From positions 1-31,416 of the IMG/VR virus record IMGVR_UViG_3300036770_004036: 31,416 nucleotides of DNA. One strand, 5' to 3'. The notes beneath the pieces are model-generated. The model was not told the DNA's origin, searched no databases, and saw only the letters and a list, made by a program, of their open reading frames with translations. Below, piece by piece: positions 1,458 through 25,041 of this stretch. The DNA comes from a virus. Numbering within the stretch: the first letter of the stretch is position 1; the number at the start of each line of letters is the position of its first letter. Position numbers and translations under genes: made by a program.

Positions 1458-2287
1458 TGGCGCTGGTTGGTTTTAGGGCACCTGCCTTACCCCTGCCTCC
1501 TCCTACTTACAGCTCTCAACAACAAGCCGAACTTCTCCGTGCGCTAAGACTTTACTTTAACCTGCTTGACTCTTTAGCCCCTCAACAGGCTATTTCGTAT
1601 ACGGCGGATCAGTTCATTGGTGGAGAGATTTCTGGGTCAAGTATTACAGGCGGTATTCTTGCAGGATTTAACCGTGGGATTGAAGCGCCGTATGTCATGC
1701 TTATGTCGGACCAAGACCAGGCAAATGCTGGCGCTACATCGGAAAATATTGTAACCTTTAACCAAATTGTACTAAACAACGGCATCACGGTTCAGGACAG
1801 CACAAAGATAAGGTTTGATTACTCTGGGCAGTATCTGGTCAACTTTAGACTTCAGGTTGTTAATAAGAGCAACGCCGTTAAAGAATTTGAAGTCTGGGCT
1901 AAAAATTCAGGCACAAACTACCCCTTGAGTAATACTCGGTTTGATGTTGCAGCACGGAAAAGTGCGTCAATTTATGGGCATACTGTTGCAAATGTAGCCG
2001 GTATTTTTACTGTTGATGCTAACGAGTACCTAGAGCTTGCGTGGTGGGGCGAGGATACGGATGTTGAACTAGAACACTATGCGGCTGGAACAAGCCCGGT
2101 TCGCCCCGAGGTACCTTCGGTTATTTTAACGGCAGCATTTTTATCCGCTAGACCGAAGAAGTTTATACCGACACTGACGGGGGGTTTGAGTTTATCTGGC
2201 ACTGCACCATCAATTAACATCGGTATAGTTCCTGGAGCAAACAACTTAACAATTGCAGGCGTAGCGCCTACAATAACCATAGCGTAA
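1457..2287 (+). CDS. Minor virion protein with beta-sandwich (C1q/TNF-like) core
   Basis: This 276-residue protein begins at an ATG that shares its A with the upstream stop (TAATG), which implies translational coupling. A Pro/Leu-rich N-terminus and short helical segment (1-50) lead into a Gly/Ser linker. Residues about 75-235 alternate strand-like segments, with a pattern such as FDYSGQYLVNFRLQVVN and IFTVDANEYLELAWWG. That is the look of C1q/TNF-type jelly rolls, which many phages use as trimeric decoration or fibre parts. The last 40 residues contain two related units ending in GTAPSI and GVAPTI, resembling short tail repeats in other phage structural proteins. The fold call rests on pattern only. 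The virion role also follows from position. Confidence 0.65.
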   Translation: MALVGFRAPALPLPPPTYSSQQQAELLRALRLYFNLLDSLAPQQAISYTADQFIGGEISGSSITGGILAGFNRGIEAPYVMLMSDQDQANAGATSENIVTFNQIVLNNGITVQDSTKIRFDYSGQYLVNFRLQVVNKSNAVKEFEVWAKNSGTNYPLSNTRFDVAARKSASIYGHTVANVAGIFTVDANEYLELAWWGEDTDVELEHYAAGTSPVRPEVPSVILTAAFLSARPKKFIPTLTGGLSLSGTAPSINIGIVPGANNLTIAGVAPTITIA

Positions 2288-2300
2288 CTAGGATTAAATT

Positions 2301-5297
2301 ATGGCTACACAAGCAGAATTAGCGCAAGGTTATAACGACTTTATAAACGCAATAACTTCTGGGAACTTTGGCGAAGCTGCGAACGTAGCTGCTGGCCTTG
2401 GGTTTTCTCCTGCCGAAACAGAAGCGTTTATAGAGGCAAATGCTCCAGGTCTTGGGTTTGACCCCGGCATAGACATTCCTTCAGACGTTATTGCTAGTTA
2501 CTTTGATGCTCCCCCTGTTAGTTATGGCCCACCTTCTCCTGCCGTTTCTCCAGCGGTATCAAACTCAATTTCGTTAACACCAGCGGGTATTGCCGCTCTT
2601 GCTCCTTCCGCTAATGTGTCTTCGCCTGCTAATGTTTTTTCGCCGGCTGATTATGGGCCTCCATCTCCTATTTTGGATTCTCCCGCCACAACACCGACGA
2701 TGACACGGCCCGAACAAGAAGAAGCTCTAATGCAGGCTTATGCAAAAGGTCAAGTCGATGAATTTATAGATTCCGTTTTGCGCGGCGCTTCAACAGGCGA
2801 TTTTAGCGAAGCTGCTGACATCCTTTCTAGGAATGCTGCCAATCCATTAATGGGTGAAGACGTATATGGCGTTGCCTCTAATTTATTAAATACCGATCCT
2901 CGTTTTGCTGGGTTGCGTGAACAAGTGGGTGGCGTGGCCTACACTCCGTCAAACCTTAAATCGTTTGTCGAATCTCAGCTTGTTACTCAAGCAGCACCAG
3001 TAACTCCAGTAATCCCAGTAACCCCTGAAGGCGCGGCTGCGCCACCTACTGCTCAGACAACTCCTGGGCCAGGACAAATCTACGGCATTCCAAGGTTTGC
3101 TCGTCAGACTCAAAGTAACGTACCATTTGCCCCCCTGCGTCGGGGTCTAGCTCAGCTTCGTCCTGCTATGTATATGCCTGGGCTAACGTCCGGTCAAGCT
3201 CCTTTGGGTGGGTCAGGGTTTACTCCAGAATCTTTACGAAATGCGATTCAATCTATGACTGCTGCTGGGCAGACCCCAGCCGATGTTGCTTATCAAATGG
3301 ACGTTGGCGGTGTTTCTCCTGCTGAGTTATCGGCTGCTATTGGAACGCCCGTTGGACAAATTCAAGCCCAATACAATCAATCACGCCCAGGCGGTTTGTT
3401 TAGCACGGGGGCGCCTGCTCCTAGGGGTTTACCTGAAGATTTTGTTCTTCAAACCGGTGCTTATGGAGCGCCAACACCTACGTTTTTTACACCAACCCCG
3501 GCAAAAACAACATTCCCATCTGGGTCAAGTAGTGCAAACGCAAATCAATCTTTAGTGGGTGCAAATTCGGTTTCTTACGACCCTGGTGGTGGAGATGGCA
3601 CCGAAAATGACCCTGGTGGTTTTTCTCCTAGTACTGATGATGGTCCTGCTGGTGTGTCAACTAGAGCCGGTGGCCTAATAAAAATGGCTGAGGGTGGTGG
3701 ACCGCCTAAAATGGCTGAGCTGTCTGCTAAGGAGGCGGGTTCGACGTTTGACATCTCTAAATATATTGACGACCAAGGGCGCTTGGTTGGTGGTTACTCA
3801 AAGCCTATATACGACGACAATCGAGTTATTACAGGGTACGACTATAGACCTTACGAACGCGACGTAGTGTTTGGTGAAGAGCTTCGTGAAAAAGAAGCTG
3901 CGATGCGGCTTACAGATGCAGAGCGCGAGCAGATGATGGTAGAGATGGCGATGCGCCAAGGCCGAACCGGAATTTCGCCGACTACAGGCGGTCTTGCTGG
4001 CATTGAAATTGGCGACCCCATGATGCGCAGGCGTCCTCAGTATTACTCAACTGTTGAGCAGTTTCGCCCTCGTTATGCCGAAGGTGGGCTTGCCAATGTA
4101 GCCCAGAACTTAGCTGAGAGAGGCCGTAAGGGCGACTCGATGCTGGTCCACATGGCGCCTGAAGAAGTTGCAGGGCTGCGAGCGTTAGCCCGTGCCCAAG
4201 GCACAGACATGACGATTAACCCACGTACGGGTTTACCCGAAGCCTTTAGCCTGAAGAAGCTGTTTAAGGCAGCGTCGTTTATTTTGCCGTTCGTACCTAT
4301 CCCCGGCCTTTTTGGTATGTCCTCGCTTCTTACAAAATCAATTCTTTCCGGCGTTGCAGCAGGCGCATCTGCCAAGGGCGGCTTCGACCTTAAACAAGCC
4401 TTGGGTGGTGGCCTCAGAGCGTACGCCATGGGTAGCCTGGGTGAGAAAATGAGCGGGGCACCAACTCCAGACGGGGCACCAACAGCCCCAACAACCACGA
4501 GTGTTCCTAATGCAGCGGCTGTTGATGTTATGGGGTCAGGTGCACCAACGGTGACGACACCAAGTGGTGACGTTTCTTTAGCCGGTTCTTATACCGGCCC
4601 AGCCACCCCAGCTTCACTTCCTGGCGCACCACAATACAAATTTAGCGTACAAGGGCCAGACGTAGGCAGCGCAGGTGTTTCCGTGCCAAGTTTAGACGCA
4701 CCGTTTTTCCCTGGCGATCCGACTGTCCCACGCCCAGAAGGCACACCAAGTTTTGTTACCCCCGAAGGGCAAGGTTTTGGTAAGCCGATCACTAAAGGCT
4801 TCGATATTGCTGCGGCGGGTATTGGTGGCCTAAGTCTTGAAAAAGCGGCTGAAGAACAGCGTAGTTATGAGATTGAAGCCGCTGCATCAAAACGAGAAGA
4901 TGAAGAGCGCAAGCGTAGATTTGATGAGCTATTTGCTAGAACACTGGGCAGTGTTCGTACCGCTAAGGCCGGGGGAACAATTAACCTTGCTAAAGGCGGC
5001 ATGACCTATATGGAAGCCGGTGGAACGACTGGGCCGACTGGGGAACCGAGGATGGTCCAGGGCACGGGTGATGGCATGAGCGACAGTGTCCCGGCTACAA
5101 TTGAGGGTGTGCAGGAAGCTCGGTTAGCAAATGATGAATTTGTAATACCTGCTGATGTTGTTGCTGACATTGGCAACGGTTCAAGTAACGCTGGAGCTAA
5201 GAAGCTCTATAGCATGATGGACCACATACGTAAAGCTCGACACGGCACAACAAAACAACCCCCTGAAATTCGGGCTGAACGCCTGATGCCAGCGTAA
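2301..5297 (+). CDS. Large Pro/Gly-rich virion protein with conserved C-terminal motif
   Basis: The protein has 998 residues and follows an AGGA ribosome-binding site in a 13-base gap. The N-terminus carries two similar helical units (FINAITSGNFGEAANVA near 15 and FIDSVLRGASTGDFSEAADI near 155). A long low-complexity region rich in Pro, Ser, Thr and Ala follows, with repeated GPPSP, VTP and GAPTP units. Gly-rich AEGG/AKGG elements recur at about residues 455-470, 590 and 890-910. A hydrophobic stretch lies near 655-690 (FILPFVPIPGLFGMSS). The C-terminus holds a motif I recall from many aquatic phage proteins: GTGDGMSDSVPATIEG, then EFVIPADVVADIGNGSS and AGAKKLYSMM. The function is unknown; I infer a structural or ejected internal protein from context. 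No catalytic motif is visible. Confidence 0.7.
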   Translation: MATQAELAQGYNDFINAITSGNFGEAANVAAGLGFSPAETEAFIEANAPGLGFDPGIDIPSDVIASYFDAPPVSYGPPSPAVSPAVSNSISLTPAGIAALAPSANVSSPANVFSPADYGPPSPILDSPATTPTMTRPEQEEALMQAYAKGQVDEFIDSVLRGASTGDFSEAADILSRNAANPLMGEDVYGVASNLLNTDPRFAGLREQVGGVAYTPSNLKSFVESQLVTQAAPVTPVIPVTPEGAAAPPTAQTTPGPGQIYGIPRFARQTQSNVPFAPLRRGLAQLRPAMYMPGLTSGQAPLGGSGFTPESLRNAIQSMTAAGQTPADVAYQMDVGGVSPAELSAAIGTPVGQIQAQYNQSRPGGLFSTGAPAPRGLPEDFVLQTGAYGAPTPTFFTPTPAKTTFPSGSSSANANQSLVGANSVSYDPGGGDGTENDPGGFSPSTDDGPAGVSTRAGGLIKMAEGGGPPKMAELSAKEAGSTFDISKYIDDQGRLVGGYSKPIYDDNRVITGYDYRPYERDVVFGEELREKEAAMRLTDAEREQMMVEMAMRQGRTGISPTTGGLAGIEIGDPMMRRRPQYYSTVEQFRPRYAEGGLANVAQNLAERGRKGDSMLVHMAPEEVAGLRALARAQGTDMTINPRTGLPEAFSLKKLFKAASFILPFVPIPGLFGMSSLLTKSILSGVAAGASAKGGFDLKQALGGGLRAYAMGSLGEKMSGAPTPDGAPTAPTTTSVPNAAAVDVMGSGAPTVTTPSGDVSLAGSYTGPATPASLPGAPQYKFSVQGPDVGSAGVSVPSLDAPFFPGDPTVPRPEGTPSFVTPEGQGFGKPITKGFDIAAAGIGGLSLEKAAEEQRSYEIEAAASKREDEERKRRFDELFARTLGSVRTAKAGGTINLAKGGMTYMEAGGTTGPTGEPRMVQGTGDGMSDSVPATIEGVQEARLANDEFVIPADVVADIGNGSSNAGAKKLYSMMDHIRKARHGTTKQPPEIRAERLMPA

Positions 5298-5307
5298 AGG
5301 AAAGAAC

Positions 5308-6282
5308 ATGGCAACGCAAACGATTACCACATCTGGCGATATTCCCAAGGTCCTAGAATCATTTTATCTGGGTAAAGAGGGACAACCCGGTCTTATTGAG
5401 CGGGGCTTTAGTGCAATTTATCCAAAAGGTCTAACCGGTGCAGAAGCCTACGCTCAGCAGTTCCAGCCGTTAATTGAACAAGGGCTTGTTGGTGCGGGTA
5501 CTGTTGCCCCGATGTCACAGTTTCAGCAGGCGTTGGGTACTCAGCTTGCCGGGATGACGCTTCCGGGCCAGTATCAGTTAGCCGAACAAGCAGGTCAGGC
5601 AGGTGCGGCAGGGCTTCAATCTTTGTTAGGTGTGCAAGCCCCCGAGTTTGGTTCGGCGCAAGCCCAGCAGTACATGTCGCCCTACATGCAGAATGTGGTG
5701 GACATGCAACAAAGAGGGGCGATTGATGCAGCACGACAGGCCCAGCTTGGTGGTAACTTAGCCGCAGCCCGACAGGGCACATACGGCGGTGCAAGACAGG
5801 CGATTCTTCAAGGCCAGCGTGAGTCAGGGCTTCGTACCCAGTTGGGCGACATCCAGGCGCAAGGACTGCAGCGTTCTTATGAACAGGCGCAGCAACAGTT
5901 TGAACGTGACCGCGCAGCCGGTCTTCAGGCTGGGCAAACTCGGCTTGCTGCAGCGCAAGGTCTTGGTGGGTTGGCTTCTACGTTTGGAGGCCTTGGTACT
6001 CAGCAGCTTGCTGGTGAGCTTGATGTGCTTAAAACTCAGGGTGCGTTTGGTGACCTCCAGCGCTCGATTGCACAACAACAGTTAGACGCACAACGCGGTG
6101 CACTCCAAGATCAGGCTCAGTACGGCATGACTCAGGTGGGCCAGCTCTCCAACCTCTTGCGCGGTGTGCCACTCTCAGATACAACGCAGCAAAATACAAC
6201 CCCACCGCCATCGTTCGCCAGCCAGTTAACAGGTCTTGGGCTTACCGGCTTGAGTCTGTACAACCTCTTGGGGAATAAATAA
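5308..6282 (+). CDS. Gln/Ala-rich virion protein
   Basis: The gene encodes 324 residues and starts at the ATG preceded by GGAAAG, 10 bases after the previous stop. The centre (about 115-250) is a Gln/Ala/Arg-rich probable helical region containing QYMSPYMQNVVD and then ARQGTYGGARQAI. I recall this arrangement from proteins next to internal virion proteins in marine and freshwater phages. The C-terminus ends with a short hydrophobic segment (LTGLGLTGLSLYNLL). The composition is compatible with a protein that is extruded or assembles into a helical structure, but that is inference. There is no enzymatic motif. It lies between two other probable internal virion proteins and shares one base with the next gene. 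Confidence 0.68.
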   Translation: MATQTITTSGDIPKVLESFYLGKEGQPGLIERGFSAIYPKGLTGAEAYAQQFQPLIEQGLVGAGTVAPMSQFQQALGTQLAGMTLPGQYQLAEQAGQAGAAGLQSLLGVQAPEFGSAQAQQYMSPYMQNVVDMQQRGAIDAARQAQLGGNLAAARQGTYGGARQAILQGQRESGLRTQLGDIQAQGLQRSYEQAQQQFERDRAAGLQAGQTRLAAAQGLGGLASTFGGLGTQQLAGELDVLKTQGAFGDLQRSIAQQQLDAQRGALQDQAQYGMTQVGQLSNLLRGVPLSDTTQQNTTPPPSFASQLTGLGLTGLSLYNLLGNK

Positions 6283-7901
6283 TGCGTAATCCAGTCCAAG
6301 AATACAACATAGCTCGGTCGATGCCGATTCAGGCCCTTGCAGCCGTGCTGCGGGGCGTTAGCGATATGGTCAGCCTTGGGGTCGCTCATGCTGCCTTAAA
6401 AGAAAAGATGGAGGCGGAAGTCGCTAAGAAAGGCGCGTCTGCCATGCAGATGGCCCAGGCTCCCAAAGTACTGGACAAAGACCTCGCTATGGCGCAAGGA
6501 CTCGGCGCTTCTCCCGCTGATGTTGATGTGCCCATGGGAGGCATAGTAGGCGGGGAGGGTACGTTTGGTACAGGCGCTGCAGGTGGTGGTAGCGTGGTGG
6601 CGTTTCAAGCAGGTGGGCAGCCGTCTCTTCAGGCTGTTTTAAATCAGATGTCTTTGCAAGAGCGCACGGATTACCAGCGCAGTGGTCGTTTACCTGAGCG
6701 TTTTCGGCAGATGTTGGCTGGAGAAACCCAAATGCCGGAAGCTGCCCCGCGCGGACCCGGTCGCGGTACTACCTTTACAGAAGCTGTGCAAGCGCAAGGA
6801 TTAGGGGCAACGCCGCTTTCTACCGACACAATGGCGTACTACCCAGGTATGGGCCCTTTAATTCAAAGGCAAGCTACACAAGCTCAAACTGCAGCAACGC
6901 AGCCTAGCCCTCCGGTTGATTATTCTAAGGCTGACATGGGGCTTGTTATGGGTTCTGCTACGGACCCAGGCGTGGCTACAGAAAGCATAGCCGACTTTGA
7001 AAAACGTATGGCTGCAAAAGAAACACCCGGTGGCGGCATAGCCGACCTTCCTGATGCCTTAACCCCATCACCACTTAACTACATAAAAATGATGGAGCAG
7101 GCTGGCAAAGTAGCTGAACGTGACTCGGGTCGAGGCGAGATTAAAACTGCTAAAGAACAGATGCAAGCTTACGACGACCTTCTTAAAGGCGCCGGGTTTG
7201 ACTTTAATGTTGTTAAAAACCAAATGGCAGAGCTTGCCAAAGAAAAAGAAGAGATTAAGGGCGGTAAGAAAGAAGCCGTTAACCTTCGTTTGCTTGAGGC
7301 AGGACTTGGCATTTTAGGTGGCGAGTCACCCTACGCGTTTGTCAATATTGGTAAAGGCGCTACTCCTGCGCTTCAAGGGTTGGCTAAAGACATCAAGGAC
7401 ATTCAGAAAGAAACCAGACTTCTTGATAAAGAAAGCCGCCAGTTAGCTATGATGCAGAACCAAATGGCAGAAGGCCGCGCTAAGTTTGCGCAGGCTGCGG
7501 TTAACCGTCAAGAAGATAAAGTTGAGCGTGTTGAAGACAGGATTGCTGCGGATAAACGAGCTATTTTCCAGACAGTAACAAGCGCTGAAGTACAAAGAGA
7601 ACTTGGCAGAATGCAACAATCAACTTCTCGTATGAATCTTCAAGCTACAAATCTTGAAAGAGAGGCGGCTCGTGATGATAGGCTTATACAGGCAGCGCTG
7701 AAGCAAGCGTCGGACGAAGTACGAGACAGCCTCCAGTCAGCGAACATGTCTCCCGCACAAAAAGAAGCTGAGATTAGCAGGCTGGCTAAAATTTACTATG
7801 CTAAGATGATTGGATTAAGAAAAGGTGATAGTGCTGCCCAAACATCCACTGATCCTGTTGCTGCCGCCCAAGCTGAAATGGCGCGAAGAGGCCTTAAATA
7901 A
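6282..7901 (+). CDS. Probable internal virion protein with coiled coil
   Basis: The protein has 539 residues. Its ATG overlaps the upstream TAA by one base (TAATG), and its own TAA overlaps the next ATG in the same way, so three genes in a row are coupled. The N-terminal 50 residues are amphipathic helix. A Gly-rich stretch follows (near 85-112, ending VVAFQAGGQ), then a Pro/Thr-rich linker. Residues about 275-500 are charged and helical, probably coiled coil, around a Gly-rich segment (LLEAGLGILGG, about 340). I do not recognise a named family. Position directly before the giant ejection-type protein suggests a partner packaged in the virion. Enzyme activity is not indicated. Confidence 0.66.
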   Translation: MRNPVQEYNIARSMPIQALAAVLRGVSDMVSLGVAHAALKEKMEAEVAKKGASAMQMAQAPKVLDKDLAMAQGLGASPADVDVPMGGIVGGEGTFGTGAAGGGSVVAFQAGGQPSLQAVLNQMSLQERTDYQRSGRLPERFRQMLAGETQMPEAAPRGPGRGTTFTEAVQAQGLGATPLSTDTMAYYPGMGPLIQRQATQAQTAATQPSPPVDYSKADMGLVMGSATDPGVATESIADFEKRMAAKETPGGGIADLPDALTPSPLNYIKMMEQAGKVAERDSGRGEIKTAKEQMQAYDDLLKGAGFDFNVVKNQMAELAKEKEEIKGGKKEAVNLRLLEAGLGILGGESPYAFVNIGKGATPALQGLAKDIKDIQKETRLLDKESRQLAMMQNQMAEGRAKFAQAAVNRQEDKVERVEDRIAADKRAIFQTVTSAEVQRELGRMQQSTSRMNLQATNLEREAARDDRLIQAALKQASDEVRDSLQSANMSPAQKEAEISRLAKIYYAKMIGLRKGDSAAQTSTDPVAAAQAEMARRGLK

Positions 7902-10900
7902 TGGACCTTACAAAACTTTCTGATGAAGACTTAAAAGCGCTTGCCAACAACGATTTTGCTTCTATATCAGATAAAGGTTTACGAATTATTGCAGGCGAGC
8001 CAGAGCCTGAACCAAAAAAAGGCGTTGGAGCTGCGTTTCGTGGTGGTTTAGAAGGTTTACTTTCTCGTTTTCAAACAGCGGGAGAGGCCGTATTTTTATC
8101 GCCTGAAGAAGCAGCCCGTCGTGGCGTTGAGCGTAGCGAAGAGATTGGGCAGCGTTTTGCACCTGGCGCTAGTCTTGAAGCCGTAAAGCAAGCCTATGCT
8201 GAACGCGGCCTGCTTGGCGGTGCTGGGGAAGTTATTAGCCAAATTCCTGGCGCCTTCGTAGAACAAATTCCAAATATTGCTGCCACACTTGCTAGTGCTA
8301 AAGCAGGTGCTTTGGCAGGTTCTTTTGCTGGCCCAGGCGGCGCTCTTATTGGTGGTGGCGTAGGTGCGATTGCACCGTCCATAGCACAGCTTTTTGGTTC
8401 AGGTCTTGAGCGTCAAGCGGCTGAAGGCGTTGAAGATATTTCTGCTGGTAAGGCTCTTGCCGCAGCCGTACCTGGCGCTGCACTAGAAGCAGCCGCTACT
8501 TTTATTCCCCTTGGTCGTTCCATTGTTGGTAAAATTCTTGGCCCCAGCGCTGAGCAAGCGCTTGCTCGTGGTACTACAGAAGCCAGTGAAGCTTTAGCCA
8601 AAGAAAGTCTGGGCGCTGTTTTAGCCAAGGGTACAACCGTTGGTGTCGGGGTTGAAGGTGGTACAGAAGTTATCCAACAGATGCTTGAGCGCTATCAAGC
8701 GGGTCTCCCCATAACGTCTGACGACGCACTGGCTGAATATGGTCAAGCTGCGTATGGCGGCGCCCTGGTTGGTGGACCGTTTGGTGCGCTGGGTCGTGCG
8801 GGTCAACGCTCGGTTGCCCGTGGGGAAGTTGAGGAAAGACGTTTGACTGAGCAGGCTGCAGAAGAAGCCAAAGCCGCAGAAGAAGCTCGACTTGCTAAAG
8901 AAGCAGAGCAGGCTAAAAAAGCAACTCCTGAGTATGAAGCTGAAGTTAGCCAAAAATTAGAAGCCGCTAATACTGAGATCAACGAGCTTAAAGAAATACG
9001 TAAGCAGAAAGACCTTGACCCTGATGTAAAGAAAGAAGCAGAAGCAAGGTTAAACGAGCTTAATAGGGAACGTAAAAAATTAGAAGCCCAGCTACAGGAG
9101 AGCAAGCGCCTCCAGGGTAAAGTGCCCACGCTTGCCGAAGTGCAGGCCCAACGCAGGGCAGAAGCGCAAGCTAAAGCCGAAACAGAAGCCGCAGAAAAAG
9201 ACCAAGCCGAAGCCGCACGTTTGGGTATGCCTTTGTTTACTGCCGACGAAGCAAGCCGCGATTTATTTTTGGATAAACAAGGACAGCTTCAAGCGTCTCT
9301 ACTACCCGAAGCGGATGCGGCTGAAAGGCAGGCTCAAGAAGACGCTGAAGTACAAGAAATAGAAGAAGCTTTTTACGCTCAAAAACGTCGCATTGAAGAC
9401 AGTCTTGAGCAGCTTTCTGCTCAAATTGCCAAAGACCCTACATCGCCTGAAGCGCTTGAAGCTAAAAAAGAATCTGAAAAACTCCAAAAACTACAAAAGC
9501 AGTTTGTATCGCAGATTAATCAACAAAATAAAATTAGGGTCGAAGAGGGTAAAAAGCCAATAGACCTTAAAAAAGCTCTCAGAGAAGAGACTGCGGCTGA
9601 GTACGACGCAAGGAAAAAGCAAAAAACAACACTGGCAGAGCCTTTTGTTGAGCCTGAAGTTGCAGAGTTAAACGCAGCACGAGAGCAACGGGCCAAACTG
9701 CTTGGGCAAATTAAAAAAGCAAACGAGCAAAACGACAGCGCCAAAGTTACCAAGCTGCAAACACAGCTTCAAGAAACAATAAACACCATCGGCGAGCTTG
9801 AAAAACAGCCTTACACCATGGACCTGTTTGGCGTACAAAATGTTCAACGCCAGTCTCGAAAGCGCATGAAGGATGCGTACGCAGGGCTTGTAGCTGAGCA
9901 AGAAAAAGGTGCTCAACGGGCTACACAAAAAGACGAAGATCGAGTAAACGCAGAAGCAGACCGATTAAGCCAAGTTGGCGGATACATTGAGCGCCTTCAA
10001 GAAGAAAAAGGCATCGAGCTGCTTGGAGTAAAGCCTGAAAACAGGGCGCGTGTCGAGGCTATGCTGGAGAAAGGTAGCCTGCCACCAGAACTTTCACAAC
10101 AGATTTTTGGAATATCCAACTTAAGCTTACCCAATGTACGGGAGGCGACTCAGAATTTAGAAGCCAAACTTAACCAAACTCACCAGGACTTTCTTGCGCG
10201 GCTCCTGACTACTGAAAAGGCTGAGAACCCCCTGCTCAATGACAACGGCATGCCCACAAAGCTTGGCCTACAAGTCATGCGGGATGAAATCCGCCTCCAA
10301 GAACTTCAAAAGCTGTTGGCGAGGCAGCAAAAACTTGCACAAGAACGGGCAGATAAATTAGACCGTGAGTTGGTAAGCCCCGAAGACTTTGCGGGTTCAG
10401 AAAGACTGGGTACTTCGGTAGAACAAACCCAAGGACCTGTTGTAGACCTTGAACCCGAAACGCAAGAAACAACCAATATGCGGGACCGAAACGTCTTGAT
10501 GGCGGCGTTTCAAGATGTAATTTACGGGCTTCAAAAGGGTATGTTTTCTGGCCTTCGGGGTGGTGTGTCTGACCCTTACGAAATAGATCGTAATGAAAAA
10601 CTTCAACGGCGCATAGAAGACGTAGACGTTGAGCTTGCTATTTTACGCGCACAAATCCAAGCAGCCCCTCAAGACTCGGACAAACTTCAATCCCGTATCG
10701 GAGTGCTTGAAGGGCGTAAAAAAATACTTAGCGCAGGGTTGAGTATTAGAAAAGACCTTCTTCGTGACGAAACAGTTAAAAATTACGATGAACTTTTACG
10801 GCAAGCCCAGCAGCTTAGGGATGCTTTTATTGAACGCGCACTTATTGAAGTAAACGCAGCTCGTGTTGCTAGAGGCTTACCCGAAGTTAAAACCCTGACG

Positions 10901-13900
10901 GACGACCAAGGTAAGTTAATTGCCGATCAGTTTAATTCGTTCATCAGTAAAGCAGCCAATGCTAAGCGCACGCTCGGGGAAAAAACAACCAAGTTGGTTG
11001 ATGAGTTTGGTCAGCCTGTTACAGACGCAGAAGGACGGCAGCTTGAGATCCGGCAGAAAAAGGGTGATCCTTCGTTGCGTCCGTTTGCTAAAGTCGGCAT
11101 GGCGCTTGACACGCTACAAGAACAGATTGAAGAAGACATCCGCCGAGCCAAGGGTGAAAAGACTTTAAAGGACCAGCTTAACGAAGCTGTTGAGGTTGAG
11201 TTTGCCAAACCAGAAGCTAAAAAAGAACGGGAAGACCGTTCTAAGATGTCGCAGTTGGTTAAAGAAATTAAAGCGCTTGAAGAGCAGCTTAACCAAGCAA
11301 TTCAACAGGTAATGCCGGGGACCCCAGAGTTAGACCTAGTTAGTCCTGCAAAACGTTCTGAAATTTTAGAGGGTTTGCAAGTACGTTTACAGCAAGTTAA
11401 AGAAGGTCCAGAAGGACAGAGCGGTTTATTTATAGAGAGTGTTTTAAAAAAACAAATTGCGTTGATGGAAGATGTAAAAAACCTTCCTGACTATCTTCTT
11501 TTTGAATACGCTGACGAGTCCTTGCTTCTAACTGCACCGGGTAATATTGAACAAACAAAAGAGATATTGCGTCGTGTTCAAAGAGCAAAAGCTGGTCCTG
11601 CTGAGCTTCGTAGAAAAATTAGAAAGAAAAAAACAGAACTAGAAGACACCAAAAAAGAAAGTAAAAAGTTTACTTTTTACTCTGAAGAAGAACTTACTAC
11701 CAAGCTTCGTAGAGATTTGCAAGATGAATATAACGCACTAGCAAAAGAGCTTTACGGCGAACGAGATGAGGATGAAACGGGAAGCCAGATAAATATTGGC
11801 CTCATAAAAGAGCTTGAAAGACTAAAAAACTCAGGCAATGTAGATCCTGAAAAAATTAAATTGCTTGAAAAACAAATTGAAGATATTAAAAAACAAGCAC
11901 AAACTATTCTTGAAAATTTTAAAAAGCTTGTTGCTGAACAAGACAGAGTAATTACATACCCTAAAACTGCCAAGTTTGGTAAGTACATAGACGCTTTAGC
12001 TAAGTTTGAAAATCTGGAAGACGTAACGTCTGAAGGCGTTGCCAAAGTTAAAAGCGATATAAGAGATGTAAAGAAAGCAACCGCACGTTTAACCGCCATT
12101 GACAATCAGTTGTATGCGTTGTCGTTGCAGCCAAAAACTGAAGCTCGTACTGAAAAAGCCAAGGAGCTGCGTGCAGAGCGTTCAAAAATTATTAAGGAAA
12201 TGTCAAAGCGTTTTGACAACCTAAGAGAAAAAACGGCGCTCCCTGATGAAGAAGCAAACACAATTGGTGTAGCCAAAGTTAAGTTGTTGGATGACATAAA
12301 AGCGTTTGAAAAAAAGTACGATGACCTTGCTGAAAACGTTATCAAACCTTTAGTAAAAAAAGAAACCGAACTCAAAAAGAAAATAGACGCACTACGTAAA
12401 AAACGTGGCGAAATTCAATTGAGTGTGCTAAACAAATATTTAAAAAAAGTTTACGACGAAACAGCGGATACCCAAAAAGAAATTAGTGAGACAGTTAAGG
12501 AACTTCGCCAAATCCGCAAGGAGCTTTTTGATAAGCGCAACAGTTACGAAAAAGAAGCTATTTCTGAATGGGCTGAAATCAAAGCTCGGGAAGCAGAGCT
12601 TCTGTACCCTTACGCTTCAAAACTTAACAAACAAACTATTACCAACGCAGTAAACGAAGAGCTTAAAGACATTGACGCCGAACTTGGTGACCTTAAAGCC
12701 AGGATGGAGCAGCTTAAGACAGATAAGCGCGAAGCCGAAGCTCGGTTAAAAACAGCTAACAGCACAGCACGTTCTGGCGCAACCCCAGAAGAGCGCTCTC
12801 AAGCACGCGCCGAAGCAAAAGACATTAAGCTTGAAATTGACAGTCTTGTTGATGCTTTAAACACCACCAACCAAACCATCATTGACCGCGCTGCACTTAG
12901 AGACGCAGAGGCTAACAAACTAGCCGCTAAGTTTGCTCGGGAGCCAGCAGGGCGCTACAACAAGTCTATGGGGCGCCTTTTAGCAAAACTAGAAGACGAA
13001 CTGGCTGAAATAACTCCCAGAGCACAGCGTGTTGCCAGAGTACGCCGTGGCGTAGAAAACCGTGTTATGAACATGGAGCGTATGCGTGCTGACCGTACTG
13101 ACCAACTAGCTGAAAACATACAGCGAAGTCTTGTAGGGTTTAAAAAACGAATTAAAAACAGCCAAGAACGTATCAAGCGTCTTGAAAGCGAGCGACTTGC
13201 TGCCAACACAGTAGGGCGTATGACCACGCCCAGCGGGAAGTTACTGTCAGGTGTAAGTGTCAGAAACATTGTTACAGGTCGCAAAGTTTCTGAAGAATTT
13301 GAAATGAGCAAAGACACGCTCAATGCCCTTAACGATGAAATTATTGACTTTCGAGAGCAGCTTAAAGCTAACTCTGAAAAACCAGCGGACGCAAAAGACA
13401 AGCTTACGGTAAAAGAACGTAAGAGCCTTGAGGGTAAATTAGGCAACCGTATTAAACGGAGGGACAACCTTTTAATTGCGCTTGATCCGGGTTCCCTGTC
13501 CGTTGAAATTGATCGCCTTCGCGCAAAACTAGCAAAAGAAACGGGCGATAAAAAAGAACAGAAAGAAATACGCGAAGCCATTGCAAAGTTAATTCGTAAG
13601 CTTCGTAACGAAAACCAAATATACGAAATTACTAAAAAAGTAACTCTGTTTGGCGACCGAAGTTTAGACACGTTTACGGAGTACGAATCTGCCGTAGGTT
13701 GGGTACGTGAGAACCACGTACAAGGCACGCCCAGTGAAATGGAGACAGAGGCAAAAACAAAACGCCTTCTTGATGCCAAAATAATTGAAGCAGAACAAAA
13801 CTTAGCCATTGAAATGGCTGGCGGCGTTAAAGAGTCTATTAGCAAAGCAAAAGCTGTATTAAAAGGTTTACGCGACCAGAGAGCGCAGCTTGTTGTTTAT

Positions 13901-16900
13901 CGTAGCCGCAAAGCGCTTAGTAAAAAAGAAGTTGAAGCAGGCATAAAAGAAATTGAGTCTGCTGAAAAAGATTACGAATTTAAAAAAGATTTGGGTAAAC
14001 CAGGCATCATTGAAGCCCTTGACATTGACGATATTACAGACCTAGACATTGACACATCTGGTGGCCCAATAGAGTTTAGGCTTGGTAATCCAACCATAGA
14101 CGCTATTGACACCAAAGATGCGTTAAAGCGTCTTGCCGATATTAAAAAGCTCACTGAAAAGATGGGCATTAAGTTTGAGTACTACGAGAACATGTCTCAG
14201 GTGCCGGTACGAATTCTTAAACAGATGGCACTGCAAGGCATTGAAACAATGGTTACCCGCGTCAAGGGCGGCGTTATGCCTGACGGGACAGTGTTTGTTA
14301 TTGCCGAGCACCACAACGGCATGCTGGATCTGGAAAAGACTCTGGCACACGAGCTAATAGGCCACTATAGTTTTGACTCGCTGCTCGGCAAAGACGGCAT
14401 GCTTAAACTCATGCTCAAGCTGGACAAAGACCTTGCCACTAAAGCCAACGAAAACGGTATTGAAAACTTGGCGGAACGCTTGGGTTTACTGGACCAGTAC
14501 AATGCGGCTGTTGCTGAGACCTACGCCTTTTACAGAAAGCGCTTAGAGTCTGGAAAAATGACGGAAAAAGAAGTGCGCCGCCAAGCAAAGATACAGGGCT
14601 TAAAAGAACTCGTCGCGTATACGATGGAGAAGCGCGTCGATAAAAGCTGGTTAGCCAAAGCCTCTGAGTTTATTAAAGAGCTGGTCCGCGCCTTCCGTAT
14701 GTGGCTCAAAGGCAACGGCATGTCAAGCCTTGCAAAACAAACTACCAATGAGTTGTTTGAGTTAATGCAGTTGGCAGAGCGCAACTTCACCGAAGGTAAG
14801 CCGATGGCTTACTACGACAGCAACGGCATGGTTTCGCTTAGCCAGACAGCAGCGCCTGCAGCGGCAAACCCCTTATCTAACATGGTTGCTAAACCAAGTT
14901 CATCGTTGGGCTTCTTAAAAGCCAACTTATTTGGTATGAACGGCATGAACTTCCGGGTGCAGTTTGTTGACCGTCTGGCTGCGCTTGATGCCTTGGTTAA
15001 AAAGGGTGTGGAAAAAAGCATTATCCCCGCACTTAAAGCCATGGACGTGCTGTACTTCAGCCGATTTGCAGGTCAGCGAAACAACTTTGCAGCCGAGTAC
15101 CTGACTAATGGTGTTGGGCGCATAGAAAAAGTCAAGGGCGAGTTCATGTACGTAGGCGGCAAGGGGCCTAGTATGAAGGACGTATCCGCAGCGCTACGTG
15201 GCTCAGGGATACCCGCTAAAGATGTAGAAGCTGCATTTACATCGTTTTTAATTGCGCGTCGTGCGGAAGTTGTGGGGGTTGACAAACTTGACTACAGCGA
15301 AAAAGTTACAGAAGCCCAGGTAAAAGCGACGCTGGCTCTTTACGGAAACAACACCGCATTTCAAAAAGCTGCAGATTTATACGACCAGTACAACAACAAT
15401 CTGATTGACCTGATGGTGCAGGCCGAAGCCCTGGACCCAGCAAAAGCCGCACGCCTAAAGAACTCTAAATACGTACCTTACTATCGTGAACGCAATAACG
15501 GCATCGAGCTTGTAATCGGTACAGAAAAACCTGTTCGTATTGGTAGCTTCAACGATCAGCCCGAGCTTAAAGAACTGCGAGGGGGTATTGAAAAAGTTCT
15601 TCCAGTCTTTACCGGCGCTGTTCAAAACACACAAATGATTGTTGACATTGTGTTGCGTAACATGGCGGCTAAGACTACAGCTTTCGTGCTGCATGAAATG
15701 CAGCTTATGGACATACGCACAGGCAGCGGCCCAGCCACACCAAAAGCCAACGTTGTGCGGTTTACCATTCTTGAAGACAGAGGCGGCGAGAAAAAGCTTG
15801 TTGAGAAGTATGCGGTTATGAAGCCTGAAGTAGGTGAAGCTATTTTTGGCAACATCCCTACAGAGCTTGTTATACGCGGCATGGAAGGAATTAAAACTAC
15901 AATCCCTGGCATCGTCCGTTTAATGGGGCTTCCTGCTAACTGGCTGCGTAGTTTTGTAACAAAGAACCCCCGGTATGCGGTCAATCAGGTGTTCCGTGAC
16001 TCGATGGCAGCAGTGCTCACAACAGGCGCTAACTTCACGCCCGTCGTACAGACACTGAAAGACATGGCTACCATGAACCGCAGTGGCGTTTTAGGGGAGT
16101 TACGTGGGCGTGGTGTAGTTGGTGGGCAAGTTATTGTTGGTGCTTCGGATGACGCCGATAAAATCCTGCGTCAGGTTACAACGGGTAAGCCGGGTTGGGA
16201 AATGGCAATGGCAAAGCTGGATGAGTTTGCCATGATGGGGGATGCGGCGACCCGTGTCTCCATGTACAACTCGTTCCTTAAACAAGGTTTGTCTGAGCGT
16301 GAAGCCACATTTGCTACGCTTGAGGCAATGAACTTTAGCCGTCGAGGACTTTCCCCCAGCGCCATATACGCAAGTATTTTGATCCCGTTCTTTAACGCTC
16401 AGGTGCAGGGCTTAGACGTGTTGTATCGTGCCTACAAAGGGGACATGCCTGCTTCTCAAAAGCTGCGGGTGCAGCAGAAACTAAAAGCCAGGCTGCTCAT
16501 GATGGGCATTTTTACCGTCGCCTACGCTGCCATGATGGAGGAGGACGAGGCTTACAAGAACGCTAACATGGACGAGCGCTACGCCAACTGGTTTGTGCCC
16601 ACACCGTTGGGAACTTTCCGCGTACCCATTCCATTTGAGCTTGGATTCTTTGGTAAGGCAATACCTGAAGGCGTGTATCGTTTAGCAGCGACAGATGACA
16701 AACTATCGGATGTTCTCCCCGCGCTACGTAAGCAGCTTTTCATGGCGATACCGGGAGACTTGCCGACTTCAATGAAGGCGCCTTTGGAAGTACTTCTCAA
16801 TAAGTCTTTCTTTACTGACCGCCCCATCATTGACGCACGCCTTGAAGGATTGGTTAAGTCTGAGCAGTTCGGAGAAAAAACGCCCGAGCTTATTAAGATG

Positions 16901-17443
16901 CTTGGCATTGACTCCCCGGAAATTGTCAAGAAAGTCTTTGGAATAGAAGGCGTATCCCCTGCGCAAGTTGAGTACCTAATTAAAGGCTACACAGGTACGC
17001 TGCCTGTGGCGCTGCTGCGGTTGCTTGACCCTGTGTTTGCAAGCGGAGAGGTTGTGAAGGCCGACATGAAGCTGTCGGATGTCCCTGTTGTCGGGTCTTT
17101 CTTCCAACCTACGGACGCTGGAGGCATTATCAACGCAGCGTACGCATCGGTGCAGCAGGCTCAGCGGGTAAGTAACACCTACAAGAAGCTGGTGTCCGAA
17201 GGTCGGACAGAAGAAGCACGTAAGTTTTTTGAAGAAAATACAGCCAACCTGTCTTTGGCGTCTGCTGCCGGAACTTTCAGACAACAAATGGGAGAGTTTA
17301 CAAAAGCAGAACGCGCAGTTAAGGCTTCCAACTTGTCGGCAGAAGAAAAGCGCGAACGCTTGGACGAGCTTCGTAAAATTAAAATCAAATACTCAGAGCA
17401 GTTTAGGAACCTTGTAGAACAAATAAAACGCCAAGCCGATTAG
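7901..17443 (+). CDS. Giant polyvalent-type internal virion protein with HExxGH zincin-like domain
   Basis: The 3180-residue protein fills 9.5 kb with no internal stop. In order: a short N-terminal motif (LSDEDLKALANNDFASISDK); a hydrophobic Gly/Ala-zipper region at about 112-165 (GALAGSFAGPGGALIGGGVG) that could insert in a membrane; very long Lys/Glu/Ala-rich coiled coil from about 309 to 2020; a metallopeptidase-like domain at about 2060-2290 with H2150-E-L-I-G-H2155 and a candidate third ligand E2236 in KELVAY; then two further globular regions from about 2346 to 3180. The last region (PFFNAQVQGLDVLYRA, about 2826) resembles what I recall as large polyvalent protein-associated domain 38. 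Such giants are thought to be packaged and injected with phage DNA to protect or process it. I infer that role. The HExxGH spacing differs from classical HExxH. Catalysis is unproven. Confidence 0.8.
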   Translation: MDLTKLSDEDLKALANNDFASISDKGLRIIAGEPEPEPKKGVGAAFRGGLEGLLSRFQTAGEAVFLSPEEAARRGVERSEEIGQRFAPGASLEAVKQAYAERGLLGGAGEVISQIPGAFVEQIPNIAATLASAKAGALAGSFAGPGGALIGGGVGAIAPSIAQLFGSGLERQAAEGVEDISAGKALAAAVPGAALEAAATFIPLGRSIVGKILGPSAEQALARGTTEASEALAKESLGAVLAKGTTVGVGVEGGTEVIQQMLERYQAGLPITSDDALAEYGQAAYGGALVGGPFGALGRAGQRSVARGEVEERRLTEQAAEEAKAAEEARLAKEAEQAKKATPEYEAEVSQKLEAANTEINELKEIRKQKDLDPDVKKEAEARLNELNRERKKLEAQLQESKRLQGKVPTLAEVQAQRRAEAQAKAETEAAEKDQAEAARLGMPLFTADEASRDLFLDKQGQLQASLLPEADAAERQAQEDAEVQEIEEAFYAQKRRIEDSLEQLSAQIAKDPTSPEALEAKKESEKLQKLQKQFVSQINQQNKIRVEEGKKPIDLKKALREETAAEYDARKKQKTTLAEPFVEPEVAELNAAREQRAKLLGQIKKANEQNDSAKVTKLQTQLQETINTIGELEKQPYTMDLFGVQNVQRQSRKRMKDAYAGLVAEQEKGAQRATQKDEDRVNAEADRLSQVGGYIERLQEEKGIELLGVKPENRARVEAMLEKGSLPPELSQQIFGISNLSLPNVREATQNLEAKLNQTHQDFLARLLTTEKAENPLLNDNGMPTKLGLQVMRDEIRLQELQKLLARQQKLAQERADKLDRELVSPEDFAGSERLGTSVEQTQGPVVDLEPETQETTNMRDRNVLMAAFQDVIYGLQKGMFSGLRGGVSDPYEIDRNEKLQRRIEDVDVELAILRAQIQAAPQDSDKLQSRIGVLEGRKKILSAGLSIRKDLLRDETVKNYDELLRQAQQLRDAFIERALIEVNAARVARGLPEVKTLTDDQGKLIADQFNSFISKAANAKRTLGEKTTKLVDEFGQPVTDAEGRQLEIRQKKGDPSLRPFAKVGMALDTLQEQIEEDIRRAKGEKTLKDQLNEAVEVEFAKPEAKKEREDRSKMSQLVKEIKALEEQLNQAIQQVMPGTPELDLVSPAKRSEILEGLQVRLQQVKEGPEGQSGLFIESVLKKQIALMEDVKNLPDYLLFEYADESLLLTAPGNIEQTKEILRRVQRAKAGPAELRRKIRKKKTELEDTKKESKKFTFYSEEELTTKLRRDLQDEYNALAKELYGERDEDETGSQINIGLIKELERLKNSGNVDPEKIKLLEKQIEDIKKQAQTILENFKKLVAEQDRVITYPKTAKFGKYIDALAKFENLEDVTSEGVAKVKSDIRDVKKATARLTAIDNQLYALSLQPKTEARTEKAKELRAERSKIIKEMSKRFDNLREKTALPDEEANTIGVAKVKLLDDIKAFEKKYDDLAENVIKPLVKKETELKKKIDALRKKRGEIQLSVLNKYLKKVYDETADTQKEISETVKELRQIRKELFDKRNSYEKEAISEWAEIKAREAELLYPYASKLNKQTITNAVNEELKDIDAELGDLKARMEQLKTDKREAEARLKTANSTARSGATPEERSQARAEAKDIKLEIDSLVDALNTTNQTIIDRAALRDAEANKLAAKFAREPAGRYNKSMGRLLAKLEDELAEITPRAQRVARVRRGVENRVMNMERMRADRTDQLAENIQRSLVGFKKRIKNSQERIKRLESERLAANTVGRMTTPSGKLLSGVSVRNIVTGRKVSEEFEMSKDTLNALNDEIIDFREQLKANSEKPADAKDKLTVKERKSLEGKLGNRIKRRDNLLIALDPGSLSVEIDRLRAKLAKETGDKKEQKEIREAIAKLIRKLRNENQIYEITKKVTLFGDRSLDTFTEYESAVGWVRENHVQGTPSEMETEAKTKRLLDAKIIEAEQNLAIEMAGGVKESISKAKAVLKGLRDQRAQLVVYRSRKALSKKEVEAGIKEIESAEKDYEFKKDLGKPGIIEALDIDDITDLDIDTSGGPIEFRLGNPTIDAIDTKDALKRLADIKKLTEKMGIKFEYYENMSQVPVRILKQMALQGIETMVTRVKGGVMPDGTVFVIAEHHNGMLDLEKTLAHELIGHYSFDSLLGKDGMLKLMLKLDKDLATKANENGIENLAERLGLLDQYNAAVAETYAFYRKRLESGKMTEKEVRRQAKIQGLKELVAYTMEKRVDKSWLAKASEFIKELVRAFRMWLKGNGMSSLAKQTTNELFELMQLAERNFTEGKPMAYYDSNGMVSLSQTAAPAAANPLSNMVAKPSSSLGFLKANLFGMNGMNFRVQFVDRLAALDALVKKGVEKSIIPALKAMDVLYFSRFAGQRNNFAAEYLTNGVGRIEKVKGEFMYVGGKGPSMKDVSAALRGSGIPAKDVEAAFTSFLIARRAEVVGVDKLDYSEKVTEAQVKATLALYGNNTAFQKAADLYDQYNNNLIDLMVQAEALDPAKAARLKNSKYVPYYRERNNGIELVIGTEKPVRIGSFNDQPELKELRGGIEKVLPVFTGAVQNTQMIVDIVLRNMAAKTTAFVLHEMQLMDIRTGSGPATPKANVVRFTILEDRGGEKKLVEKYAVMKPEVGEAIFGNIPTELVIRGMEGIKTTIPGIVRLMGLPANWLRSFVTKNPRYAVNQVFRDSMAAVLTTGANFTPVVQTLKDMATMNRSGVLGELRGRGVVGGQVIVGASDDADKILRQVTTGKPGWEMAMAKLDEFAMMGDAATRVSMYNSFLKQGLSEREATFATLEAMNFSRRGLSPSAIYASILIPFFNAQVQGLDVLYRAYKGDMPASQKLRVQQKLKARLLMMGIFTVAYAAMMEEDEAYKNANMDERYANWFVPTPLGTFRVPIPFELGFFGKAIPEGVYRLAATDDKLSDVLPALRKQLFMAIPGDLPTSMKAPLEVLLNKSFFTDRPIIDARLEGLVKSEQFGEKTPELIKMLGIDSPEIVKKVFGIEGVSPAQVEYLIKGYTGTLPVALLRLLDPVFASGEVVKADMKLSDVPVVGSFFQPTDAGGIINAAYASVQQAQRVSNTYKKLVSEGRTEEARKFFEENTANLSLASAAGTFRQQMGEFTKAERAVKASNLSAEEKRERLDELRKIKIKYSEQFRNLVEQIKRQAD

Positions 17444-20889: not shown

Positions 20890-21786
20890 TTAGTCGTCGG
20901 TGTCCCAGTCAGCAACTACAGATGCTAGGTTGTTTCGCTTGTTGGGGGCGGGCGCTGCTTTTTCTTGCCGTACTTCTGGCTCATCGACATCGTCCTCAAC
21001 AGGCTCTTTCGCCGCCTTGGGTTTCTTAGGAGCCTCCAGTACAGGAACGTCAGGCGCCTTATCTGTCTTAGCCACCGTCATCGTGACAGCTTTCTTAGCC
21101 TCTTCAGAATTACCCTTCTCAACGACAATGTCGTGCTCGTCGTCATCCAACCAGCGAACAGGACGGAAGAAAAGCTTGGGGGATTGCGCCTTAGTATCAA
21201 ACTTCATGCGGGTCACAACCTCGTCAGGGCTGATGTTCTGCGCACCGAGCCAGTTGGCGTAGGCTTTCAAGGGCATGTTCTCGCCTTCGGCTTGACCAAA
21301 CAACGAGGCAGCAGGTACCTGAAGCTGTAGCACATCCCCACTTATGTCGCTCTCAAGCACAACCGCAAGGCGCTGGGAGAACTTACAGGCACGGCTTTCG
21401 CCAGCACCAGAACCCTTCATGTTTTGAGGGCAGGTTGCACAAGTTTTCGACTGGGGGTTCTTTGCTTCAACCGAAGGTGTGTTGCCGTCAGCCGACCAGC
21501 AGTCAGGGGCGGCAGACTTCTCGGGGTCATAAGCGCCTGCGTAGAAGGTGCGCCCAATGTCTGGGGCAGCATTAGCAATCACCACATCCAGATGACGGTC
21601 TTCAATCGAAGCGATCTCTTTACCATCGGCGAGCAAACGAAACACACCGCCCTTGATTGAAACGCGCTTACCACCGCCACCACCTCCGCCTCCACCCATC
21701 AGGGCCTTGGCGACATTAGATAATTCCCCACGCTTCTTGGCAAAGGCAGGGGCTTTGTTGGGATTAAATTGAACGACGTTACTCAT
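20890..21786 (-). CDS. Probable single-stranded DNA-binding protein
   Basis: The gene encodes 298 residues after a clear AAGGAGA site. The N-terminal 30 residues are followed by nine glycines (31-39) and a folded core (about 40-235) containing C96, C116, C119 and C134, a possible zinc site (CATCP arrangement). The C-terminal 60 residues are Ala/Pro/Lys/Glu-rich and end in an acidic tail, DWDTDD. An acidic tip with an aromatic residue is typical of phage and bacterial ssDNA-binding proteins that recruit replication partners. The neighbours (helicase, polymerase, primase) fit. I recall related proteins next to the same coiled-coil gene in other phages, mostly unnamed. The function is inferred, not motif-proven. 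Confidence 0.6.
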   Translation of the reverse strand: MSNVVQFNPNKAPAFAKKRGELSNVAKALMGGGGGGGGGKRVSIKGGVFRLLADGKEIASIEDRHLDVVIANAAPDIGRTFYAGAYDPEKSAAPDCWSADGNTPSVEAKNPQSKTCATCPQNMKGSGAGESRACKFSQRLAVVLESDISGDVLQLQVPAASLFGQAEGENMPLKAYANWLGAQNISPDEVVTRMKFDTKAQSPKLFFRPVRWLDDDEHDIVVEKGNSEEAKKAVTMTVAKTDKAPDVPVLEAPKKPKAAKEPVEDDVDEPEVRQEKAAPAPNKRNNLASVVADWDTDD

Positions 21787-24079: not shown

Positions 24080-24745
24080 CTAATGTTTGGGATTAAACTC
24101 GCACCCTTTGACCGGGCACCATCCGCACAGCGGCGTTTGCGTGGGGTTCCACACGTTGTGCTCAAAAGCAGAAGAAATCTTTGACACCCGTTGCCTGTAT
24201 TCCCACCACTCCTTCTCTGTTTCCTCGAAGGTCATCCGATGTTTAACGATGGTGTCCTTCACAACAAAAAGAAGGGCCGACTTTATTTCACGGATATGGG
24301 GGAAGTGAGCAAAGGTCATCAGCGACATAAGCTTTAATTGGTCGGTGTCAGGGTATCGGTTGTTGCCTGTCTTGTAGTCCACAATCCAAGCGGTCAGTCC
24401 ATCATCGTCTACGATCAGCAGGTCGGCAATCCCCCGCACCCATACGTTCTCGTCCTTGAATCCGCAGGGCAGCAGATCAATCGTCAGCCCCATCTCGTGC
24501 TCGGGGAGTTTGCGTCCTGGCTTAGCCAGTAGCGCGTCGATTGTCGGCTTAACAAACTCAAACTGTTTTGGTATCGGGGTGCCGTCTTTCACATAGTCTT
24601 CGGCAGCTTTATGAAGGTCTTTGCCGTAACGGGTCTGCTCAGTTTCTTGGAACGGGTAGTTCTTTAAAACCTTGACCTCGTGATACCTTCGAGCGCAACC
24701 CTCAAAATCTTTCAGGCTGCTGTGGGACCATGTGATTTTCTGCAT
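24080..24745 (-). CDS. PD-(D/E)XK nuclease of the RecB/Cas4 type with probable Fe-S cysteines
   Basis: The 221-residue protein shows the RecB-family nuclease core: H45 (KDLHKAAE), D108 (RGIADLLIV), D123 and K125 (WIVDYKTG), and Q136 (QLKLM). Four cysteines are placed as in Cas4 and AddB: C17 near the N-terminus (FEGCARRY) and C207, C210 and C215 at the C-terminus (LCGWCPVKGC). Together these can hold a 4Fe-4S cluster. Family members are DNA exonucleases that process ends. Here, without cas genes, I infer a role in phage recombination or end resection with the SNF2 helicase. Its ATG overlaps the preceding gene's TGA by one base (TGATG), which implies coupling. Confidence 0.85.
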   Translation of the reverse strand: MQKITWSHSSLKDFEGCARRYHEVKVLKNYPFQETEQTRYGKDLHKAAEDYVKDGTPIPKQFEFVKPTIDALLAKPGRKLPEHEMGLTIDLLPCGFKDENVWVRGIADLLIVDDDGLTAWIVDYKTGNNRYPDTDQLKLMSLMTFAHFPHIREIKSALLFVVKDTIVKHRMTFEETEKEWWEYRQRVSKISSAFEHNVWNPTQTPLCGWCPVKGCEFNPKH

Positions 24746-25041
24746 CAGAACCTCGCGCTTTGAATCGCCTTGTTCAGGCGGCTGGAAAACTCAAGTACAA
24801 ACTTCTCGTTCGACTCGTAGGGGTGGTTCATGTCTTTGAGAATGGCGTGCGTCAACTCATGCCAGAACGTGTCCATTACTTCTTCGCGCTTGAACCTGCG
24901 TCCACTTAGACTGCTGTGCGTTGCAACTGCAATTTCTTTTGTGTCGTAATCCACTTCACCCATCAGGCCATCGGCAATCTGTTTGACTTGATGAATCCTG
25001 TAGAGCCTGCGTCCGACCCTTATTTTTTTAGGTAACTTCAT
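24745..25041 (-). CDS. Small zincin metallopeptidase-like protein (SprT-like)
   Basis: The 98-residue protein carries a classical HExxH helix (DTFWHELTHAIL) and a downstream acidic helix (NEKFVLEFSSRL) whose glutamate is a plausible third zinc ligand. Small phage zincins with this layout are often annotated as SprT-like or ImmA-like, and I cannot separate these. The start is ATG 25041, with AAGGAGA 3 bases upstream. The longer frame to 25101 would run into the polymerase gene and is rejected. It starts 13 bases after the polymerase stop. The substrate is unknown. A peptidase acting on a host protein or on DNA-protein crosslinks would fit the neighbours, but that is inference. Confidence 0.75.
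   Translation of the reverse strand: MKLPKKIRVGRRLYRIHQVKQIADGLMGEVDYDTKEIAVATHSSLSGRRFKREEVMDTFWHELTHAILKDMNHPYESNEKFVLEFSSRLNKAIQSARF

Follow-up and report, generated by a model that had tools for sequence, protein, structure and literature searches.

A giant cysteine-free viral protein related in its C-terminal region to the N4 virion RNA polymerase is a probable polymerase-free ejection protein

We describe a protein of 3180 residues encoded by a complete, linear IMG/VR record of 31,416 bp (IMGVR_UViG_3300036770_004036, here called the window). With a probability of about three in four, it is the largest ejection (internal virion) protein of a podovirus DNA-ejectosome and a polymerase-free cousin of gp50, the virion RNA polymerase (vRNAP) of phage N4. 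From one end to the other, it would consist of a membrane-active N-terminal module, a long helical spacer, a C1 metallopeptidase-like domain, and a C2-like module with LPD38. The initial annotation of this DNA gave the same sequence of parts, which proved correct, while its account of the middle part and of the function needed revision.

Results

Gene order

The giant gene is, as first annotated, one intact open frame with an ATG start, and this start overlaps the stop of the 539-aa gene before it by one base (TAATG). It closes a block of three genes encoding 324, 539, and 3180 aa, the order of which resembles T7 gp14-15-16 and N4 gp52-51-50:

5308..6282, + strand: 324-aa partner gene, in the place of T7 gp14 / N4 gp52 (matches phrog_4287, DNA ejection protein, E 5.5e-11; 0 Cys)
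6282..7901, + strand: 539-aa partner gene, in the place of T7 gp15 / N4 gp51 (adjacent, one-base overlaps)
7901..17443, + strand: giant-protein gene (open reading frame; LPD38 and PHROG matches)

To the left of the giant gene, the + strand carries virion genes of 484, 276, 998, 324, and 539 aa, the first of which matches phrog_3287 (virion structural). To the right lies a convergent replication module (DUF927, SNF2 helicase, PD-(D/E)XK nuclease, and DNA polymerase A). In 45 of the 54 loci long enough to look, a relative of the 324-aa gene precedes the giant gene, and most relatives have a similarly sized Cys-free gene at the place of the 539-aa partner. The window is probably a piece of a larger podovirus genome, longer related records being mostly 60-67 kb.

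Three loci (L042:2303-4873, L063:870-3440, and L078:1977-4223) have equivalents of the 324- and 539-aa genes that are apparently joined in a single ORF of 750-860 aa, which immediately precedes the giant gene. Two small proteins without a Pfam match were also seen in the window. One, of 298 aa in the replication module (20890-21786, - strand), has a run of nine Gly near its N-terminus that is kept in L003 and shorter in L002; the other, of 118 aa (24745-25101, - strand), has a separate, stand-alone HExxH motif (WHELTHA).

Relatives and the C-terminal module

Relatives were found with the C-terminal module, from the best 80 of 589 viral-contig loci, and 79 IMG/VR relatives were analyzed, among which the complete ones have 1861-3223 aa. 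They are retrievable through this module only, as tblastn with the zincin region alone gave no matches in phages or in the viral-contig scan. The HExxGH motif is present in 54 of the 79 and absent from 16 complete relatives, 14 of which have an HExTH motif in its stead. The named phages found through the C-terminal module are Pondi (an isolated Escherichia coli phage, homolog UVD31718.1), PTXU04, Pag-Yong1, phiARM81mr, several 37-kb Vibrio phages, Thalassomonas BA3, and Pelagibacter HTVC204P. The HTVC204P homolog occupies the place of T7 gp16: tail tubular A, tail tubular B, and an internal virion protein precede it, and the tail fiber follows. Public annotations of the homologs are inconsistent (RelA/SpoT, N-6 adenine-specific DNA methylase, type I restriction enzyme methylase, and putative portal), which makes the family hard to find by name. 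The ends of one 63,210-bp record (IMGVR_UViG_3300037502_001755) fall inside the giant gene at the metallopeptidase motif, with HEVAGH at one end and FGLREMLGG at the other, as expected for a circular assembly opened in this gene.

The C-terminal module contains the following features:

14978..16480, + strand: C2-like module, residues 2360-2860 (family alignments; hhalign)
16151..16465, + strand: match to the end of N4 gp50 C2, residues 2751-2855 (hhalign E 0.0019, shuffle control)
16544..17092, + strand: LPD38 domain (PF18857), residues 2882-3064 (Pfam match)

The polyvalent-type C-terminus that had been predicted was borne out by LPD38, with an E-value of 4.8e-25 and 89.2 bits against a curated cut-off of 27 in Pfam (94.5 bits in the genome search); phrog_9854 and phrog_18222 match over about residues 2470-3160.

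N4 gp50 is made of a membrane-active NTD, an RNAP, C1 (HExxH), and a helical C2 (PMC12633501), the last described in a 2025 preprint on the N4 vRNAP structure as having no known structural relative (PMC12633501). When 19 LPD38-family sequences were compared with 11 N4-like C-terminal sequences by hhalign, residues 2751-2855 matched the end of N4 C2 with a score of 41.1 (E 0.0019), a moderate match over a short stretch of about 100 residues. Controls gave at most 21.2 (60 column shuffles), 18.1 (reversed), and 22.1 or less (ten other phage proteins). Earlier comparisons with fewer sequences had yielded E-values of 0.03-0.15, and more diverse sequences brought this to 0.0019. Foldseek with a model of the C-terminal module found no significant match in the PDB, a library that does not necessarily hold the N4 C2 structure. 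This match to the end of C2, the C1 match described below, and the N4 order gp52-gp51-gp50 together support, at the level of sequence and gene order, a common origin of the C-terminal region, or some part of it, with N4 gp50.

The HExxGH domain

14066..14800, + strand: C1-like metallopeptidase domain, residues 2056-2300 (family alignment; AlphaFold2 model; N4 C1 profile match, E 1.9e-6)
14348..14365, + strand: HELIGH, residues 2150-2155, predicted zinc ligands and general base (invariant in the family)
14606..14629, + strand: E2236..A2239..E2243, predicted third ligand helix (invariant in the family; in the following helix of the model)

The HExxGH motif reported by the initial annotation was confirmed as HELIGH, and HExxGH occurs throughout 53 aligned sequences. 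This set was chosen for having the motif, and the remaining invariant residues were not part of the selection; G2123, T2147, H2150, E2151, G2154, H2155, G2163, E2236, A2239, and E2243 are invariant in it and likewise in a 55-sequence comparison. The motif sits 982-1031 residues from the C-terminus in complete relatives and is of the HExxxH type, not the canonical HExxH. As Pondi has HEIVVH and phiARM81mr has HEVLAH at the aligned place, HExxxH is the general form.

The AlphaFold2 model of the domain has a pLDDT of 80.7 overall and above 90 across much of the core, with the topology H42-58, E63-66, E92-96, E102-105, H112-148 (holding the motif), and H193-214 (holding both Glu). Iyer et al. (2017) defined the metallopeptidase core of polyvalent proteins as an N-terminal helix, three strands, and two C-terminal helices, and described a set with HEXXXH, one residue longer (PMC5512222). 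The modeled domain has this core, and HExxxH and the downstream Glu are kept in the 53 sequences. As in that HEXXXH clade, the Glu lies in the following helix, and a helix and three strands precede the catalytic helix; unlike the clade, the domain has no Pfam match at E 1 and holds a fixed place before the LPD38 module.

In profile comparisons (hhalign), the HExxGH domain matched N4 C1 with an E-value of 1.9e-6 and a score of 50.8, against 23.7 for the best of 50 column shuffles, and the corresponding domain of the HExxH sister clade matched it at 4.8e-8. The two domains each match N4 C1, and their direct comparison was non-significant. Foldseek with the domain model gave seven BFVD proteins at E <0.001, among them phage giants named large polyvalent proteins, and nothing in the PDB that reached E 0.001. 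Sequence searches with the domain in Pfam, PADLOC, and the PDB returned nothing significant, and no Pfam model reached E 1. Membership of peptidase family M49 (dipeptidyl peptidase III, HEXXGH) was considered and rejected, the motif alone being in common and no M49 family appearing in the Pfam table at E 1.

The term zincin-like, used in the initial annotation, is thus supported by the motif, the predicted topology, and the profile match to N4 C1. The structural match to a solved zincin on which the same annotation had staked it did not appear in the PDB, so the identity rests on homology and not on a fold match. Judged by these profiles, the HExxGH domain is homologous to N4 C1, and it is probably a zinc peptidase by predicted activity.

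Absence of an RNA polymerase

No single-subunit RNA polymerase domain was found in the giant protein. With T7 and N4 as positive controls, 15 related records (61-99 kb) and the window itself likewise yielded no such polymerase. The giant protein is thus no vRNAP, but it is built on a vRNAP-like chassis. A hidden polymerase was considered in two relatives with a PF21867 match and rejected, since the match is below the cut-off (17-18 bits against 27) and lies in the C-terminal module, not in the middle.

The middle region

8801..13990, + strand: charged, mostly amphipathic-helical middle, residues 301-2030, a spacer of variable length in the place of the N4 polymerase (periodicity; length range; no sequence conservation)

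Residues 301-2000 contain 37% DEKR with balanced charges, 47 Pro, and 73 Gly. A strong 3.6-residue periodicity is found around residues 1001-1200, 1301-1550, and 1651-1750, and the 3.5-residue periodicity of heptads, in 100-aa windows, is clearly above shuffles near 1251-1350 only and weakly so at 301-400 and 1501-1600. The proposal of about 1700 residues of coiled coil was overstated, the stretch being highly charged and largely amphipathic-helical, with patchy heptads and the 47 prolines; a canonical long coiled coil, with continuous heptad periodicity, was rejected on this periodicity. Its length had been called striking. At 1729 aa, it is the second longest in a range of 434-1782 aa across 44 family members, high in that range and not unique. 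BLASTP similarity in the middle was detectable in 1 of 79 relatives, and no internal repeats were found. With such variation in length and so little similarity, the region behaves, as far as sequence can tell, as a spacer or structural element rather than as a conserved enzyme.

Pfam, PADLOC, and PDB sequence searches detected no effector domain between residues 300 and 2040, and the suggestion of a multi-purpose protein acting on host targets found no support in a middle that evolves like a spacer. The same result bears on an injected polyvalent effector, in which the protein would be the payload, its protease would attack host proteins, and the helical region would be a delivery linker only. 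The fully conserved catalytic residues of the zincin-like domain would fit such a role, Iyer et al. name host proteins among the possible targets (PMC5512222), and the giants of Pag-Yong1 and Vibrio 1.232.O have extra enzyme-like domains or annotations. However, the giant protein has no further effector domain, and its metallopeptidase-like domain stands at a fixed distance from the C-terminus and matches N4 C1, which belongs to an encapsidation region; we regard an effector as improbable.

The N-terminal module

8198..8800, + strand: conserved N-terminal module, residues 100-300 (family alignment of 46 sequences from both clades; hydropathy)
8270..8515, + strand: Gly/Ala-rich hydrophobic segment, residues about 124-205 (hydropathy)

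The module is alignable across both the HExxGH and HExxH clades. Its glycine-rich hydrophobic segment, noted at the outset, holds up: the 19-residue Kyte-Doolittle maximum is 1.55, ten GxxxG lie within residues 81-320, and 54 of 60 full-length family members have a hydropathy window of at least 1.3 in this region. The label pore-like, from the initial annotation, is a reading of this hydropathy and may describe the segment. Compared with the N4 NTD, the module has a similar hydrophobic segment and a non-significant profile match (E 0.061 over 13 residues); a match to the P22 gp16 N-terminus (E 0.028 over 26 residues, hhalign) was taken as noise. By hhalign, neither this module nor the two partner proteins had detectable homology to T7, P22, or N4 ejection proteins, and no direct homology of the giant protein to T7 gp16, P22 gp16/20/7, or N4 gp51 was detected (no E-value below 0.17 for the C-terminal module).

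Cysteine exclusion

The giant protein has no Cys in its 3180 residues. The 276-, 998-, 324-, and 539-aa genes (window 1457-7901, + strand) also lack Cys, and the exclusion spans 5317 consecutive operon residues. Earlier noted for N4-like vRNAPs, it is near absolute in this family, with 0 Cys in 123,291 residues of the 54 HExxGH relatives. Those without HExxGH have 24 Cys in 56,926 residues, 22 of them in (C)AGTPWCTG or close variants. This motif marks an extra domain after the zincin in the HExxH clade (L046, L049, L052, L053, L055, L059, L061, L069, and others), which seems to be a conserved departure from the exclusion and may be catalytic. In the same loci, the remaining ORFs of 250 aa or more have on average 9.92 Cys per 1000 residues, an upper figure because mechanical ORFs were included.

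Zero Cys is also found in T7 gp15 and gp16, in P22 gp7, gp20, and gp16, and in N4 gp50, gp51, and gp52; T7 gp14 has one, and most portal, tail, and terminase proteins have some. The scaffold proteins T7 gp9 and P22 gp8 are without Cys as well, and some capsid proteins also blur the rule. As these scaffolds and the 276- and 998-aa virion genes are depleted too, the absence of Cys is not exclusive to ejection proteins. It has been published for N4-like vRNAPs, with the idea of easier passage through tail and periplasm (PMC3715699, PMC3915230), and we take it here as support rather than as a new principle. A non-ejected head or tail protein with a structural or scaffolding role, such as one that measures length or forms a core, could share this feature with gp9 and gp8, and a long helical region of variable length would suit it. 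We consider it very improbable, since the gene order groups the giant protein with ejection proteins, its C1 homology and its match to the end of C2 are to an ejected protein, and its N-terminal module is hydrophobic.

Discussion

The proposal of the initial annotation that the protein is injected gains indirect support from the gene position, the lack of Cys, the C-terminal homology to the N4 vRNAP, and the LPD38 protein gp69 of Burkholderia phage JC1, which has 4515 aa and was found in virions by mass spectrometry (PMC9144972). Several copies of the giant protein would be packaged in the head via the C1-C2/LPD38 module and leave through the tail ahead of the DNA, threaded with little folded structure; the lack of Cys would follow from this nearly unfolded passage. 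The N-terminal hydrophobic segment would then insert into the inner membrane (the N4 gp50 NTD enters nanodiscs; PMC12633501), and the amphipathic helices would extend along or line an envelope channel built with the 324- and 539-aa partners. The C-terminal module would refold once in the cytoplasm, and the Zn-peptidase may there set this module free or trim the channel. The N4 vRNAP is packaged unprocessed, and the region holding its protease domain is needed for encapsidation (Iyer et al., PMC5512222). This speaks for a role of C1-C2 in packaging and, should the protease act at all, for its acting once ejection has taken place.

It is also conceivable, if rather unlikely, that the peptidase cuts the giant protein in the head during maturation and that the fragments act separately. 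Autoprocessing has been proposed for such domains by Iyer et al., P1 DdrB is processed before packaging (PMC5512222), and the domain position is fixed between two conserved ends; the N4 vRNAP, with its related C1, nevertheless enters the head uncut. Self-processing is in part compatible with an ejection protein, the difference being one of timing.

The ejection protein proposed here resembles N4 gp50 (Schitoviridae; about 3500 aa) in its size, its third place in a three-gene block, its hydrophobic N-terminus, its lack of Cys, and a metallopeptidase-like C1 followed by a helical C-terminal module. It differs in having a free-length helical spacer instead of the RNA polymerase domain, HExxxH instead of HExxH, an N-terminal module without detectable homology, and LPD38, which is absent from N4. 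With the LPD38 large polyvalent proteins (Iyer et al. 2017; Bcep22/JC1 gp69, Pag-Yong1, and Xuquatrovirus Pondi/PTXU04), it shares the C-terminal module, giant size, and the last position in the virion gene block. However, several of those giants have mid-protein enzymes (methylase, helicase, and transglycosylase in JC1), and none is detectable in the protein of the window. T7 gp16 and P22 gp16 are alike in gene-order position, as largest ejection protein, in the lack of Cys, and in a hydrophobic segment, but have no detectable sequence homology to it; T7 gp16 is also less than half as large and contains a transglycosylase domain.

The giant gene is real and coherent, and an informative variant on the N4-like chassis. 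It is quite possible, although we propose it tentatively, that the N4 vRNAP is one version of a widespread ejection chassis (membrane N-terminus, exchangeable middle, C1, and C2) present in many non-N4 podoviruses. The middles would be enzymes in some podoviruses and a free-length helical spacer in the giant-protein family, and the polymerase would be a cargo that an older ejectosome component gained or lost. The domain of unknown function LPD38 probably marks the third protein of the ejectosome in many uncultured podoviruses. The family provides many natural variants that keep the N4-related C-terminal domains without the polymerase, and our results suggest that C1-C2 serves packaging, ejection, or refolding, not transcription alone. 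As Pondi carries a homolog, this idea is open to bench testing.
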